Shown here: in pieces, positions 24,834-37,548 of the stretch
Layout: each line of letters starts with the position of its first letter
How positions within the stretch are numbered: position 1 is the stretch's first letter
NCBI GenBank assembly: GCA_025359865.1
Contig: JANYDH010000093.1
Span: forward strand, 1 to 38,700
Source of the DNA: Actinomycetes bacterium
GTDB taxonomy: Bacteria; Actinomycetota; Acidimicrobiia; Acidimicrobiales; Ilumatobacteraceae
Length of the DNA stretch: 38,700 nucleotides
Direction of reading: 5' to 3'
Notes under the pieces: model-generated
Seen by the model: only the letters and a program-made list of their open reading frames with translations
Told to the model about the DNA's origin: nothing
Databases searched by the model: none
Translations under genes and position numbers: made by a program

Positions 24834-25601
24834 TCACTCGATACTGGCGGTGGCCTTCAGGTCGGCCGCGAGCGCAGCGTCGTCGGCGCCGGAACCGAGA
24901 GTGCGCCAGACGCCGATACCCAAGATGTACACCGGGCAGGCGATGATGAGCGCAGTAAGTACGTCGGGCTCACGGGGGTACACCCCGGTGAGCCACAAGA
25001 CGCTGGCGAGCCAGGTGACGGTGATCGACACGGTGAGGGGCCGGAACCGGCGCACCTGCATCGGGTGGACGAACTTCCAGTTGGTGAGCTGCGTGAGCGT
25101 GAGCAGTACGCATACCACCGCGGTGACCCACTGGTCGACCCTCAGCAGGTACAAGGTTGGGACGATCATGTTCCACTCGCAGGGGAAACCATTGAACCAG
25201 TGGTCACTTGTCATTTGGTCGGTACGTGACATCCACAGCGCTGACATGAACAACATGAATGCACCGATGTACAGCGATGCACCATGGGGAAGCATGTGGA
25301 AGCGGTGCAGAAAGATCACCGGAATGACGATGCAGGTGACGAAATCGACGATGAGGTCGAGCGTGTAGCCATCGATGCGCGGAATGTGATGGCTCACGTT
25401 CCAGGCCCTGGCAACCGGCCCATCGATGCCGTCGAGCACCATCGCAACCGCAAGCCAAGTGATGGCTTCGCGCGGTCGGTAATCGGAGACCGCAATGATG
25501 CCGAGCATGCCGCACACCGCGCCACTGGCAGTGACACAGTGAACGATCCATCCCTTGGTCAACGGGTGGTTGACAGTCGTTGGGCAGGAGTTACTGGTCA
25601 T
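24834..25601 (-). CDS. pcs: CDP-alcohol phosphatidyltransferase, probable phosphatidylcholine synthase
   Basis: The 255-residue protein has about eight hydrophobic segments and the CDP-alcohol motif DGIDGPVAR...DGYTLDLIVD, in the form typical of phosphatidylcholine synthase. In that enzyme a DG.DGP.AR start and a Gly/Leu-Asp second half precede a TYV/IP-type helix; here FVTCIVIPVIFL follows. FNGFPCEWNMIV in the middle also matches that family. The reaction would be CDP-diacylglycerol plus choline to phosphatidylcholine and CMP at the cytoplasmic membrane. A phosphatidylserine or other CDP-alcohol transferase is the main alternative. The start has no ribosome site; a TAGTAT box lies 45 nt upstream. 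Confidence 0.82.
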   Translation of the reverse strand: MTSNSCPTTVNHPLTKGWIVHCVTASGAVCGMLGIIAVSDYRPREAITWLAVAMVLDGIDGPVARAWNVSHHIPRIDGYTLDLIVDFVTCIVIPVIFLHRFHMLPHGASLYIGAFMLFMSALWMSRTDQMTSDHWFNGFPCEWNMIVPTLYLLRVDQWVTAVVCVLLTLTQLTNWKFVHPMQVRRFRPLTVSITVTWLASVLWLTGVYPREPDVLTALIIACPVYILGIGVWRTLGSGADDAALAADLKATASIE

Positions 25602-33565: not shown

Positions 33566-33571
33566 TATACT
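33566..33571 (+). promoter_or_regulatory. -10 box (TATACT) for the lipid desaturase gene
   Basis: TATACT, near consensus, lies 13 nt before ATG 33585, giving a leader of about 6-7 nt. Confidence 0.5.
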
Positions 33572-33584
33572 TGGGCGTTGAGTC

Positions 33585-34403
33585 ATGAACGAGCATCTGG
33601 ATCACGTGTCGTTGTTGCCTCGGCCTCTGGTTGCAGCTGTGGCCGAGCCGGTTCCTGTCGTCTCCGCTCGGTGGCTGCTCGGTAGATACGACTACCCGCT
33701 CAGCCACCGGATCCTCGAACTCTGTTCGCTCGCTGCGTTCGTGGCGCTCGCTGCGGCGATGGCCACACAAGTGGTTCCATCGATTGGTGACCGACGTACC
33801 GGATGGACGATTGCGCTCGTCGCCGCTGCCCTCATGATGGGTTGTGCTCTAGCTGATCTGCTGTCTGGCGTGGTGCATTTCATCTTCGATCAGTACGGCA
33901 CGCCGACTACTCCGGTGATCGGTCAAAAATTTGTGAAGCCATTCCGGGATCACCACATCGACCCGTTGGCGATGACGCATGGTGATTTCATCGCGGTGAA
34001 CTCCGACAACCTGCTGATTTCCTTGCCGGTGATGGGGCTCGCGCTTGCCTTTGTCGATCTGAGCACGCACCCGTACATCGGTGTCTTCGTTCTAGCATTG
34101 GTTCTGGCTGCTGGGATCACGAACCAGATCCACAAATGGGCGCACATGCCAGAGGTCTCGAGACCGGTGCGATTCGCTCAACGTCGTGGCCTGATTCTCG
34201 GTGTCGAGCACCACGACTGCCATCATCGCGCTCCGCACGATCGCCATTACTGCATCACGTTCGGCCGCCTCGATGTGGTGCTCGACGTGATGACAACGCG
34301 ACTCAGCTGCGGTTCTGCAGACCGAACGGGAACGGCCCATCCACACCAGCCACGCTGCACCGAAGATCGATTGGGCCGACAAACTGATCATCACGCCACG
34401 TAA
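33585..34403 (+). CDS. CarF/TMEM189 (PEDS1)-type lipid desaturase, putative plasmanyl-lipid desaturase
   Basis: The 272-residue membrane protein carries the Lipid_desat histidine framework: ADLLSGVVHFIFDQYG, then KPFRDHHIDPLAMTHGDFIAVNSDN, NQIHKWAH, and GVEHHDCHHRAPHDRHYCITFG. These align closely by eye with CarF/TMEM189, which installs the vinyl-ether bond of plasmalogens. FAD4-type acyl desaturases of plants share the fold, so the substrate is not certain. Hydrophobic segments flank the His clusters. The usual C-terminal FWRRLE-like region is missing: after LDVVLDVM, the last 32 residues form an unrelated polar tail that is antisense to the 3' end of the neighbouring DUF2510 gene. Confidence 0.85.
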   Translation: MNEHLDHVSLLPRPLVAAVAEPVPVVSARWLLGRYDYPLSHRILELCSLAAFVALAAAMATQVVPSIGDRRTGWTIALVAAALMMGCALADLLSGVVHFIFDQYGTPTTPVIGQKFVKPFRDHHIDPLAMTHGDFIAVNSDNLLISLPVMGLALAFVDLSTHPYIGVFVLALVLAAGITNQIHKWAHMPEVSRPVRFAQRRGLILGVEHHDCHHRAPHDRHYCITFGRLDVVLDVMTTRLSCGSADRTGTAHPHQPRCTEDRLGRQTDHHAT

Positions 34404-35082
34404 CGCGTTGGCCGGGGGCCACGTCGACCACGCTGATAGCGGCGGTGCCGACCACTCGCGACCTGTCGCTGTAGGCGATCCTCACGGAGTAGCTTCGGAT
34501 CCGCGTGTCGAGATTGGTGATCGAGCCGTCGAATGTGGCGAGTCCGCCCTCCAGCCGGCACCAGTTTTCGGCGACCGTGTAGCGACCGGGGTTGGTGTAG
34601 TTCTCGACCTCGCGGATTGTGAGCCGGGTCGTGCCAACGCCGATCGCGCACAGCCCGAGGGCTACCGGAGCGATGATGAGCCCTGCCGCCGCCATGCGCT
34701 TGCCGCTCAGCGCAGCATCGGTTGGGAACTCGCGGCAATGGCGCAGTGCCACGACACCGAGCGCAACCGCCGAGAGCGCTCCGGCTGCACCCAAGACGAA
34801 CAGGAACGGAACCCAGGACAACGTGACTGCCCCCAGGCTGAACACGAGGGAAAGCACGGCCGGTCGTTTGGCCGGATGACGAACCGTCGGCTCCGCGCCG
34901 GATTGGCCAACACCAGGTACTTGACGATGTTGCATCACCCCGTGCGGATCGACATACCGTTCTCCATCGACCGAGACGTCGGGCGTCCATGTCTCGCCGT
35001 TGAAGTAGCGGAACTCGTAGCGCCCGACCGGATCGGGGAACCAGCCTGCTGCGTTCGTGGTGCTCGCCGACTGGTTGCTCAT
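34303..35082 (-). CDS. DUF2510-domain membrane protein
   Basis: The 259-residue protein begins with a DUF2510 module (residues about 12-45: GWFPDPVGRYEFRYFNGETW), an actinobacterial short domain usually attached to membrane proteins. Two or three hydrophobic helices follow (about 72-150), then a C-terminal beta-rich, probably extracytoplasmic domain (GSITNLDTRIRSYSVRIAYSD, like FxLYD-type domains). Function is unknown. The last 101 bp overlap the desaturase gene convergently. A TATCGT box lies 9 nt before the ATG. Confidence 0.88.
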   Translation of the reverse strand: MSNQSASTTNAAGWFPDPVGRYEFRYFNGETWTPDVSVDGERYVDPHGVMQHRQVPGVGQSGAEPTVRHPAKRPAVLSLVFSLGAVTLSWVPFLFVLGAAGALSAVALGVVALRHCREFPTDAALSGKRMAAAGLIIAPVALGLCAIGVGTTRLTIREVENYTNPGRYTVAENWCRLEGGLATFDGSITNLDTRIRSYSVRIAYSDRSRVVGTAAISVVDVAPGQRVTWRDDQFVGPIDLRCSVAGVDGPFPFGLQNRS

Positions 35083-35124: not shown

Positions 35125-36756
35125 TCACTCAGTCGCGGCGGCATCGCGAGCCCAGCGGTAGTCGGCCTTGCCGCTTGGGCTGCGATACACCGAATCGACC
35201 CACACCACCCGACGGGGCGCCTTGTACGACGCGATCCGGCTACGGATCTGGGTGATCACGTCGTCAGCATCCGCGGTGTTGCCCGGTTCTCGTGAGGCTA
35301 CGAGAACCACGATCTCACCGAGCCGCTCATCGGGCACCCCGACCACGGTGCAATCGAGAACCCCCGGATGTAGTCGGGCGGCTACCTCCACCTCTTCGGG
35401 GTAGACCTTCTCGCCGCCGGTGTTGATGCACACCGAACCGCGGCCCAGCAGGTGCACGGTTCCATCTGCGTCGATGGTGGCGAAGTCGCCTGGCACGGTG
35501 TACGCGACACCGTCGATGGTGCGAAACGTGGCAGCCGTGAGTTCATCATCACGGTAGTACCCGCGGGGCATCGGCCCACTCACCGCCAGCATCCCGATCG
35601 TTCCGGAACCTCGCGCCGCTGGACGTTGCGTTGTTTCGTCGAGAACGACGGTGTGAGGTGGTGCGGTAAACACCGCAGTGGCGTTCGGGGCGGTTCCCGG
35701 CATGGTCATCGAGACAGCAAAGGGGCCGCCTTCGCTCGCCCCGATCATGTCGATGATCACGGCTTGGGGCGCCCACCTCTGGAACGCGACCTTGCACTCG
35801 ACCGACAACGTGGCGCCCGTAGAAACGATCCGCTGCAGCGTTGCCAGGTCGTACGGTGCGCCGCTCGAATGAGCGGTCTCGAGCGCAGCGATCATCGGCC
35901 GTGCGAATGCATCGCCGACGATCGACAACTGCGTCACGCCGTGCGAGCCGACAAGGCCCCACAGTTCGTCGGCATCGAATCGGCGTCCGCCCAGCATCAC
36001 GACGGTGCCGCCCATCACGAATGCGGAGATCGCGAGGAACAGTGCGGTGCCGTGCATCAGTGGCGGGGCACACAGATTGACCGGGCTCCTACCTGTCGCA
36101 TTGAGGTCGGCTGCCACGCGGGCTACCTCATCGGCGGTCTCGGGTACTGCCATGCCTGCCGACACATATCCGGTGAAGGCAAGCGCGCCGAACAGGTCGA
36201 CGTGGCGCCACATCACAGCTTTTGGCAGTCCGGTCGTGCCACCAGTGTAGAGAAACAACAGATCCTCGCCGGATCGCTCGGTCCGCGGAGCGGGCACCGC
36301 TTCGTTTACCACGTCGTGATACCACCGTGCCCCGGGAAGTAGCGGCGAACCATCGTCCACTTGGAGTAGCAGCCTCAGTGAAGGAACGGTCGCTTGTGCT
36401 TCGCCGACGCGGTCGGCGAGTGAGCCGTGGAACACCAGCACTTCTACGCCTGCGTTGTCGAGAACGTACGCAATCTCGGCGGCGAGGTAGCGGTAGTTGA
36501 CGTTGACCGGTGTGGCGCGCAGCTTGAAGGCAGCGAAGACCGACTCGATGTACTCGGTGCAGTTGAACAGCAATTGGGCGACCCGTGTGCCTGCCTCGAC
36601 CCCAAGGGCGGCGAGTCCGCCGGCCAAACGCGCTGCCCGCCCCTCGAGCTCGTTCCAGCGCATTTCGTGGTCGCCCACAACGACGGCTACATGCTCGGGC
36701 TGCGAGTCGGCCATTGCCTCCCACAACGTTGCCCAGTTCTCGGACAGTTCGCTCAT
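35125..36756 (-). CDS. Acyl-CoA synthetase (AMP-forming, FadD-like)
   Basis: The 543-residue adenylating enzyme has the P-loop-like LFLYTGGTTGLPKAVMW, the adenine/acyl motif around IDMIGASEGG, the hinge region with VPGDFATID and GRGSVCINTGGEKVYPEEVE, and the C-terminal catalytic lysine in SPSGKADYRW. It would activate a carboxylic acid to acyl-CoA; the chain length is unknown. The reading frame is open upstream, but GAGGAGA 9 nt before ATG 36756 fixes the start. A TACGAT box about 66 nt upstream gives a leadered mRNA, unlike most genes here. It is divergent from the histidine phosphatase. Confidence 0.93.
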   Translation of the reverse strand: MSELSENWATLWEAMADSQPEHVAVVVGDHEMRWNELEGRAARLAGGLAALGVEAGTRVAQLLFNCTEYIESVFAAFKLRATPVNVNYRYLAAEIAYVLDNAGVEVLVFHGSLADRVGEAQATVPSLRLLLQVDDGSPLLPGARWYHDVVNEAVPAPRTERSGEDLLFLYTGGTTGLPKAVMWRHVDLFGALAFTGYVSAGMAVPETADEVARVAADLNATGRSPVNLCAPPLMHGTALFLAISAFVMGGTVVMLGGRRFDADELWGLVGSHGVTQLSIVGDAFARPMIAALETAHSSGAPYDLATLQRIVSTGATLSVECKVAFQRWAPQAVIIDMIGASEGGPFAVSMTMPGTAPNATAVFTAPPHTVVLDETTQRPAARGSGTIGMLAVSGPMPRGYYRDDELTAATFRTIDGVAYTVPGDFATIDADGTVHLLGRGSVCINTGGEKVYPEEVEVAARLHPGVLDCTVVGVPDERLGEIVVLVASREPGNTADADDVITQIRSRIASYKAPRRVVWVDSVYRSPSGKADYRWARDAAATE

Positions 36757-36765
36757 CGTCGCGCT

Positions 36766-36772
36766 TCTCCTC
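36766..36772 (-). promoter_or_regulatory. Shine-Dalgarno GAGGAGA of the acyl-CoA synthetase gene
   Basis: A clear purine-rich site 9 nt before ATG 36756 that chooses this start over upstream in-frame alternatives. Confidence 0.7.
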
Positions 36773-36822
36773 GTCATTGGTCCACAAGACTTGTTCACTG
36801 CTTGACTTCGTGACCACACGGG

Positions 36823-36828
36823 ATCGTA
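36823..36828 (-). promoter_or_regulatory. -10 box (TACGAT) for the acyl-CoA synthetase gene
   Basis: TACGAT on the minus strand, preceded by TC, gives a leader of about 60 nt containing the Shine-Dalgarno. Confidence 0.4.
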
Positions 36829-36838
36829 GAACCGCACG

Positions 36839-36844
36839 TACGCT
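36839..36844 (+). promoter_or_regulatory. -10 box (TACGCT) upstream of the histidine phosphatase
   Basis: TACGCT lies exactly 6 nt before GTG 36851, which opens a 6-codon mini-ORF, and 26 nt before the phosphatase ATG. Confidence 0.5.
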
Positions 36845-36850
36845 CTAACG

Positions 36851-36871
36851 GTGATGGAGCTTTCACACTGA
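36851..36871 (+). CDS. Putative leaderless mini-ORF (6 codons) coupled to the histidine phosphatase
   Basis: GTG 36851 (or ATG 36854) opens a frame MMELSH ending at TGA 36869-36871, whose last base is the first base of the phosphatase ATG. The GTG is 6 nt after TACGCT. Arrangement and spacing match the mini-ORF at 27273-27302. Evidence is positional only. Confidence 0.35.
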   Translation: MMELSH

Positions 36872-37548
36872 TGGAGATCGTGCTCATTCGCCATGGCGAA
36901 CCCGAATGGGTCGTCGACGGTCTCAATATCGACAACCCTCCGCTGACCGCGCGTGGCCACGCACAGGCGCAGGCCATGGCCGAGTTCATCCGCAACGAAC
37001 ACTTCGACGAGGTGTATTGCTCACCGTTGGTTCGCGCCCGACAGACCGCTGCACCATTGTTCCAGGCACTTGGTCGTGACGAGAGTGTGCAACCCTGGCT
37101 CGAGGAGATCCGCAACCCGTTGTGGCATGGCACCCCGCAGGAGCGTGCTGACGAGGCCTATCGCCAAGACCGTGCCCGCAACTCGCACGAGCGGTGGGAT
37201 GGTCTCGTGGGTGGCGAACCGCCGCGGGAGTTCGTCGAGAGAATCCACACCGGATGCATGGCGTTCTTGACTGAGCGGGGAGTGACCCGCATCGAGTCCG
37301 AACTGTCGATGTGGAACATCACCGACCCGCCGCGCAAGATTGCGCTTGTCGCACACGCCGGCACCAACTCGGTCGTGATCTGCCATGTCCTCGGCATTGC
37401 GCCGACGCCGTGGGAATGGGAACGTTTCGTGATCGGTCACGCGACGGTCAGTCGGCTCGAGGCGATGAAGATGGGCGATGGACATTCGTTCAGCCTGACC
37501 TCGCTGTCGGACGACGAGTACCTGCCACGGACCGACCGCACCCGCTGA
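36871..37548 (+). CDS. Histidine phosphatase (phosphoglycerate-mutase-like)
   Basis: The 225-residue protein opens with the catalytic LIRHGEPEW (phospho-accepting His). DNPPLTARGHAQAQAMAEF follows, then the YCSPLVRARQTA arginine and the second catalytic His in LVAHAGTNS. It is a member of the branch-1 histidine phosphatase superfamily. Substrates range from sugar phosphates to nucleotide or cofactor phosphates, and none can be assigned. No Shine-Dalgarno precedes it; a 6-codon mini-ORF overlaps its start codon. Next downstream is the methyltransferase with its own promoter. Confidence 0.92.
   Translation: MEIVLIRHGEPEWVVDGLNIDNPPLTARGHAQAQAMAEFIRNEHFDEVYCSPLVRARQTAAPLFQALGRDESVQPWLEEIRNPLWHGTPQERADEAYRQDRARNSHERWDGLVGGEPPREFVERIHTGCMAFLTERGVTRIESELSMWNITDPPRKIALVAHAGTNSVVICHVLGIAPTPWEWERFVIGHATVSRLEAMKMGDGHSFSLTSLSDDEYLPRTDRTR

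Follow-up and report, generated by a model that had tools for sequence, protein, structure and literature searches.

The gene studied here very probably encodes a di-iron lipid desaturase, to judge from its sequence. It belongs to the Lipid_desat family, whose known reactions are the formation of the vinyl-ether bond of plasmalogens (CarF/PEDS1) and of the trans-3 bond of plant phosphatidylglycerol (FAD4). Alignment and trees indicate that the acidimicrobial proteins are a separate Lipid_desat clade, in which glycine replaces the PEDS-type histidine. Tentatively, and with slightly less than even confidence in the statement as a whole, we read the product as an O2-dependent di-iron phospholipid desaturase of this clade that would most likely convert an alkyl-ether substrate to a vinyl ether. 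The window, i.e., the whole stretch of DNA analysed, comprises 38,700 nucleotides of contig JANYDH010000093.1 (assembly GCA_025359865.1, Ilumatobacteraceae).

The desaturase gene and its catalytic residues

The features discussed are collected in Table 1. The frame of the desaturase gene is open over all 272 codons, and two stops were found in the single frame translated from the opposite strand. The start and the first 30 residues are uncertain. A search with the Pfam profile, which the preliminary description had proposed as a check, gave 145.6 bits (E 2e-42, residues 88–236; cut-off 26.4 bits) and placed the protein in the family. The histidine motifs listed in that description were all present in the translation, namely PFRDHHIDP (residues 119–127), NQIHKWAH (180–187), HHDCHHRAPH (209–218) and YCITFG (222–227). 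The genome (4.99 Mb, 96.6% complete) contains no other Lipid_desat match, and none of the 14 control genomes matched. It had been called actinobacterial-looking, which is right, since it falls in the same family group (f1) as the Ilumatobacteraceae relative G018 and represents an acidimicrobial bacterium.

Table 1. Features of the window (positions in nucleotides; residues numbered in the desaturase)
Feature	Position	Strand	Basis
Lipid_desat (PF10520) membrane desaturase gene	33585–34403	+	ATG start, 272 aa, profile match
H98 + D102: first conserved His, Asp equivalent to mouse PEDS1 D100	33876–33890	+	alignment
F120-R-D-H123-H124: second His box, Phe equivalent to mouse F118	33942–33956	+	alignment
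G133: ninth-His column (CarF H113 / mouse PEDS1 H131), here Gly	33981–33983	+	alignment
D158 + H162: clade-fixed, short loop between third and fourth long helices of model	34056–34070	+	alignment, model
H183 + H187: third His box (NQIHKWAH)	34131–34145	+	alignment
H210, H213, H214: fourth His box (HDCHH)	34212–34226	+	alignment
Non-homologous tail, residues 240–272, antisense through DUF2510 3' end	34302–34400	+	Pfam match ends at 236
DUF2510 gene, convergent with the desaturase	34303–35082	-	
Acyl-CoA synthetase	35125–37002	-	NCBIfam subfamily cut-off passed, 581.1 vs 543
Phosphatidylcholine-synthase-like protein	24834–25601	-	190.8 bits, below 300-bit equivalog cut-off

The catalytic residues of mouse PEDS1 are H96, D100, F118, H121, H122, H187, H191, H215, H218 and H219; the eight histidines and D100 are essential and F118 is important, as stated in passages of PMC8960569 and PMC7149458. 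The mouse numbering was transferred to the window protein by motif spacing and through the CarF rows of the alignment, animal PEDS1 being represented by its published numbering only. All eight catalytic-type histidines and the essential aspartate were found in the window protein, aligned with those of the CarF rows. Twelve columns are invariant across the 61 aligned homologues, and the invariant positions include H123, H124, H183, H187, H210, H213, H214 and F120, as well as R121. H98 is gapped in two rows and D102 in one, and both are fixed elsewhere.

The ninth-histidine position and the acidimicrobial clade

According to passages of PMC9131029, a ninth histidine is present in animals, myxobacteria and Leptospira and absent in plants, which usually have arginine in this column, and in Alphaproteobacteria; it marks the plasmalogen-forming members, and plant or alphaproteobacterial homologues do not complement carF. 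When it was mutated, CarF failed to give a response in M. xanthus and mouse PEDS1 retained 7.4% of its activity, as given in part of PMC8960569. In the window protein this column is occupied by glycine, as it is in all seven relatives of the clade (L025–L031; 8/8 members). Among the 96 other distinct homologues, 86 have histidine here (49/53 within the alignment), including all 12 fetched proteins over the CarF cut-off and all 14 homologues of the order to which the Leptospiraceae records belong. The Rubrobacteraceae are divided equally between histidine (6/12) and asparagine (6/12), and 54 of the 58 remaining homologues have histidine. The histidine one position before G133, H132, is peculiar to the window protein within the clade, the other members having R (five), Q (one) and D (one).

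The preliminary description had named the product a CarF/TMEM189-type lipid desaturase. Its assignment to the Lipid_desat family and to the di-iron desaturases stands; the CarF/TMEM189 type does not, since the ninth histidine is absent and the protein is therefore not to be filed as CarF/PEDS1. The window enzyme may still function like CarF/PEDS1 despite this. Against the NCBIfam CarF equivalog NF045946 (cut-off 500 bits), the window protein scored 145.5 bits and five clade relatives scored 153.7–183.7 bits. This cut-off is narrow, being reached by 0/30 genomes of the Leptospiraceae-holding order (best 229.6 bits), so that falling below it says little by itself.

The homologue set comprised 104 rows and two phage rows after 30 duplicate loci had been dropped. 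The best 80 of 204 relatives were kept, and the scan required conserved peptides, so that rows without the motifs are under-sampled; the broken or partial pieces L018–L024 failed a motif filter and were left out. Twenty-two genomes exceeded the CarF cut-off, and 12 of their loci were retrieved. One match in the relative G034 (L004; 20.7 bits) was rejected, as it lies below the Lipid_desat cut-off and its locus reads as a NuoE/NuoF-like frame. A careful tree was built from 58 rows with the columns around G133 removed and the long-branch sequences L101, L139 and L142 left out. In it the eight acidimicrobial proteins stay together on a single branch (support 100/98), CarF forms its own branch apart from them (100/99), and the Rubrobacteraceae together with one Gemmatimonadota row form another (100/94). 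None of the CarF, Rubrobacteraceae and Leptospiraceae rows falls on the clade's branch, and a quick tree of 106 rows agrees on these groups. Spirochaetal rows stand closest to the clade (92/90), but this position should not be relied on. Both trees consist of rows other than FAD4, animal and alphaproteobacterial ones, so that the side of the CarF/FAD4 divide on which the clade falls is not read from them.

The lack of the ninth histidine is a trait that the window protein shares with plant FAD4. Since this is the residue reported to separate CarF/PEDS1 from the plant and alphaproteobacterial homologues, and since those homologues fail to complement carF, the product could be an acyl-lipid desaturase of the FAD4 kind. 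Such an enzyme would desaturate an ester-bound acyl chain of a phospholipid close to its carboxyl end, and the organism would need no ether lipids. We rank this second and regard it as somewhat unlikely, because the column holds glycine and not the usual plant arginine, D134, F135 and N139 are kept near it, as in 39, 39 and 47 of the 53 other rows, respectively, and the clade lies beside the spirochaetal rows in the tree described above.

Further residues set the clade apart. K115, D158 and H162 occur in 8/8 members, and in the 53 other rows K was found in 0, D in 2 and H in 2; D141 is present in 8/8 members vs. 1/53 others, and V138 is another residue proper to the clade. The loss of the ninth histidine together with K115, G133, D141, D158 and H162 would be compatible with a third functional type, neither PEDS1 nor FAD4, whose double bond would be placed at a new position of a phospholipid chain or in a new class of lipids. 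This is an unlikely reading in our estimate.

The desaturase gene is rare and patchy across Acidimicrobiia. Only 3 of the 61 genomes of the window's relatives were over the Lipid_desat cut-off (the window's own, G018 and G047), and the gene was found in 0/4 other genomes of the same genus, which are 83–98% complete. A draw from the class gave one match in 395 genomes, the window's own; a draw from the phylum gave 19 in 396, namely the window's own, one Nitriliruptoria and 17 Rubrobacteraceae (family f84). In the family of Aquihabitans sp. G128, 5/24 genomes have the gene, and these are the sources of L026 and L028–L031. The record of L030 is labelled Ilumatobacteraceae, at odds with its grouping in the Aquihabitans family. 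The closest relative of the window protein has 51–52% identity. Among the matches listed in a search of open-licence full texts, none dealt with CarF or plasmalogen-desaturase genes in Acidimicrobiia.

Rubrobacterales reportedly have mixed ether/ester lipids, to go by a title (Sinninghe Damste et al. 2023) cited in PMC11150832. As asparagine occupies the ninth column in half of the Rubrobacteraceae rows, the ninth histidine may be dispensable in some organisms with ether lipids. The many matching genomes, the His/Asn at the ninth column and the ether/ester lipids of the order make the Rubrobacteraceae a better candidate than the window gene for aerobic plasmalogens in Actinomycetota. Their Lipid_desat rows are L005–L016, L038, L045, L061, L071, L083 and L085.

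CarF-like proteins with the ninth histidine also occurred, among others, in records titled Bacteroidetes (L035, L066), Gemmatimonadaceae (L036), Acidobacteria (L064), Planctomycetota (L041, L055, L079, L096) and Uhrbacteria (L046, L086, L102). Uhrbacteria have small, host-dependent genomes; CarF-like genes are unexpected there, and the metagenome bins may be mixed. In two records titled Klebsiella pneumoniae (L097, L104), the Lipid_desat genes group with myxobacterial rows, and these records are probably mislabelled metagenome bins. According to passages of two reviews, of 2021 and 2022 (PMC8156234, PMC9131029), the only bacteria with CarF-like proteins are myxobacteria, Alphaproteobacteria and a few Leptospiraceae, and outside the myxobacteria Leptospira alone has a "true" CarF. 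Genes of the CarF-like kind with a ninth histidine are more widespread in bacteria than these passages state, their function being predicted.

Mobile elements were also searched. In 72,556 plasmid records, tblastn searches with the window protein and with a CarF matched nothing, and among the 31 pattern matches obtained in viral_contigs none was confirmed as a relative. The 50,697 phage records searched contained two distant homologues (28–32% identity over 58–68% of the protein). One (L143, positions 2283–2819) is annotated as hypothetical in Erythrobacter phage vB_EliS-L02 (UIS25202.1) and is located between a PhoH and a portal gene. The other (L144, positions 1501–2097) is a distant Lipid_desat homologue in a 595-kb uncultured phage, whose record is without annotation.

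Possible ether-lipid capacity, proposed reaction and fold

Four FAD-oxidase_C proteins were found in the window's genome. The best PDB match of two of them, the AGPS-like L147 and L148, was alkyl-DHAP synthase, and both keep the HHHG stretch and the aligned Tyr and Arg, which we take to be the AGPS catalytic residues. AGPS-like proteins (E <= 1e-30) were present in seven of the eight desaturase-bearing genomes (not G047) vs. seven of the ten desaturase-free acidimicrobial genomes chosen; with the query used, none was found in Rubrobacter G791 or Myxococcaceae G785. Because desaturase-free relatives have them too, there is no co-occurrence signal and the test is uninformative. That these proteins do not track the desaturase gene also speaks for the FAD4-kind alternative. 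The fatty-acyl-reductase domain PF07993 was also searched and rejected as uninformative, as it occurred in 19/19 genomes and 14/14 controls. AGPS homologues are abundant in Actinobacteria of Black Sea genomes, and ElbD homologues need not mean ether lipids, according to passages of PMC11868695. The preliminary description had suggested that the organism may make plasmalogen-like ether lipids aerobically; with AGPS-like genes that are present and do not track the desaturase, aerobic plasmalogen synthesis is possible, judging from the genes, and not indicated.

In the reading we prefer, that of a phospholipid desaturase, the product would be a membrane-embedded di-iron enzyme with four long helices, whose His boxes would face the cytoplasm if the topology published for CarF applies here. 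The eight histidines would bind two irons, and D102 and F120 would hold two of the ligands. Using O2 and electrons, the enzyme would act on intact membrane phospholipids and desaturate a hydrocarbon chain close to its glycerol end. To this point the account is well supported by homology. The likeliest substrate would be an alkyl (ether) phospholipid, converted to a vinyl ether as by CarF/PEDS1. This substrate is favoured because most of the bacterial homologues among which the clade stands retain the PEDS residues and because the genome has AGPS-like candidates; it is only modestly more likely than desaturation of an acyl chain.

The AlphaFold2 model (61 sequences) has four long helices (pLDDT 85.6, pTM 0.79), with low confidence at residues 1–30 and beyond 240. 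No PDB structure reached E <= 0.001 in a Foldseek search, in which Scs7p came first (E 0.43), and no convincing relative of the window protein was found among PDB sequences. Scs7p, a membrane di-metal hydroxylase, was the nearest solved structure in VIA-align (Z 8.8, rmsd 4.2, 177 aligned), followed by SCD1 as the next nearest membrane di-metal fold (Z 5.1–5.2) and by an unrelated row (4.6); Z below 13 in helical models possibly reflects a common arrangement, and 8–9 is modest. Two viral proteins in BFVD matched at E <= 0.001, one of them a Harvfovirus lipid desaturase domain protein. The Harvfovirus proteins whose predicted structures match the model, A0A3G5A308 (E 2.4e-07) and A0A3G5A6S0 (E 2.9e-03), are named lipid desaturase and fatty acid desaturase domain proteins.

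That a fatty-acid hydroxylase is the nearest solved fold (Z 8.8 vs. 5.2 for SCD1) raises the question of another oxidation by the same fold, in which a lipid chain would be hydroxylated or a different class of ether lipid desaturated, and the clade's own residues K115, G133, V138, D141, D158 and H162 could be read in the same way. We consider it distinctly improbable, given that such Z values are modest for a helical membrane protein and that, to our knowledge, Lipid_desat is known for the two reactions named at the outset and no member hydroxylates.

Genomic setting and comparison with known systems

The best DUF2510-match regions of six genomes (G001–G004, G014 and G018), from 37 searched, were compared with the window. 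The window's gene block consists of an acyltransferase-like gene, DoxX, two ABC transporters, an SDR, DUF2510, the acyl-CoA synthetase, a histidine phosphatase and a methyltransferase. Parts of it were recognisable in all six regions with varying completeness, down to the synthetase, DUF2510 and SDR only in G002. The DUF2510 proteins are just 35–41% identical across the alignments of the relatives, so that the correspondence of the regions rests on the neighbours. No desaturase was found at E <= 0.1 in any of the six corresponding regions. Between the second ABC gene and DUF2510 there are 4 bp in G014, 18 bp in G018 and 246 bp in G003; the distance from the SDR to DUF2510 is 712 bp in G004 and 3.7 kb, with other frames, in G001 and G002. 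The desaturase of G018 sits on another contig than its block. The distribution is compatible with acquisition of the desaturase by the lineage of the window, and repeated loss is also possible. In the preferred reading, the gene is accessory and was either acquired or retained at this place within a conserved block of genes.

Two neighbours had been taken as hints of unusual membrane lipids, and neither hint holds. The adjacent acyl-CoA synthetase (73–75% identical) is in place about 1.1 kb or less from DUF2510 in G001 and G002, and the phosphatidylcholine synthase, 8 kb away in the window, has its counterpart (70–77% identical) near the block in G014 and G018, in all four cases with the desaturase absent there. 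Being kept in desaturase-free regions, both are old neighbours and no evidence of an ether-lipid pathway. Phosphatidylcholine may be general in the window's family of Acidimicrobiia, as the counterparts in G014 and G018 suggest. An ether-lipid operon, of which the preliminary description had seen no obvious sign, found no support: the desaturase alone, out of 14 window proteins, matches the seven clade loci (E <= 1e-6). Two generic matches of 28–31% between L025 and far parts of the window stand aside from the flank comparison, whose simple gene caller missed the desaturase itself in L028, L030 and L031. Flanking genes are common to L026 and L029, and likewise to L028, L030 and L031; none of them is near the window gene.

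The last 33 codons of the desaturase (window positions 34302–34403) overprint the 3' end of DUF2510 in antisense. The better DUF2510 matches in relatives align up to its residues 252–259, so that its own end aligns there, and the pLDDT of the desaturase tail is below 60. The tail looks like read-through that would have arisen when the gene came against DUF2510. A TATACT sequence lies at 33566–33571, 13 bases before the ATG, and could give a near-leaderless transcript of the gene's own; the scan found no full sigma-70 promoter around the gene. A stray insertion without present function that is being lost would suit the absence from the six regions, the overprinting tail and the divergence of the sequence from its best relative, and it is very improbable with 272 codons open, the eight histidines, the aspartate and the phenylalanine kept despite that divergence, and a confident domain model.

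A natural clade with glycine at the residue said to separate CarF from FAD4 offers a ready test of the role of this residue. One member belongs to Aquihabitans sp. G128, whose genome is complete and apparently from a culture; its gene is located at about 1,834,691–1,835,329 of the chromosome. Should the clade form vinyl ethers, function could not be told from the ninth histidine, and aerobic plasmalogens would extend to Acidimicrobiia; should it not, the Lipid_desat family may have a further reaction.

Comparison with the known systems indicated that CarF of Myxococcus xanthus (NF045946; rows L119–L128) resembles the window protein in the Lipid_desat domain, the eight histidines, the aspartate, the phenylalanine and the N-x-x-HKW-x-H and Y-C-I-T motifs. 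They differ in the ninth column (His vs. Gly), in their strongly supported separate branches and in the equivalog score (145.5 bits vs. the cut-off of 500). Animal PEDS1/TMEM189, compared by published numbering and spacing only, has equal catalytic residues by the mouse numbering, with H131 missing in the window protein. Plant FAD4, the plastid trans-3 phosphatidylglycerol desaturase, was compared by description only; it belongs to the same Pfam family, has the eight histidines and is likewise without the ninth. The Rubrobacteraceae proteins (L011, L014, L038, L045, L061, L071 and others) represent another actinobacterial group with the same His boxes, and they differ from the window protein in their 33–36% identity to it, in the histidine or asparagine of the ninth column and in forming a separate branch.
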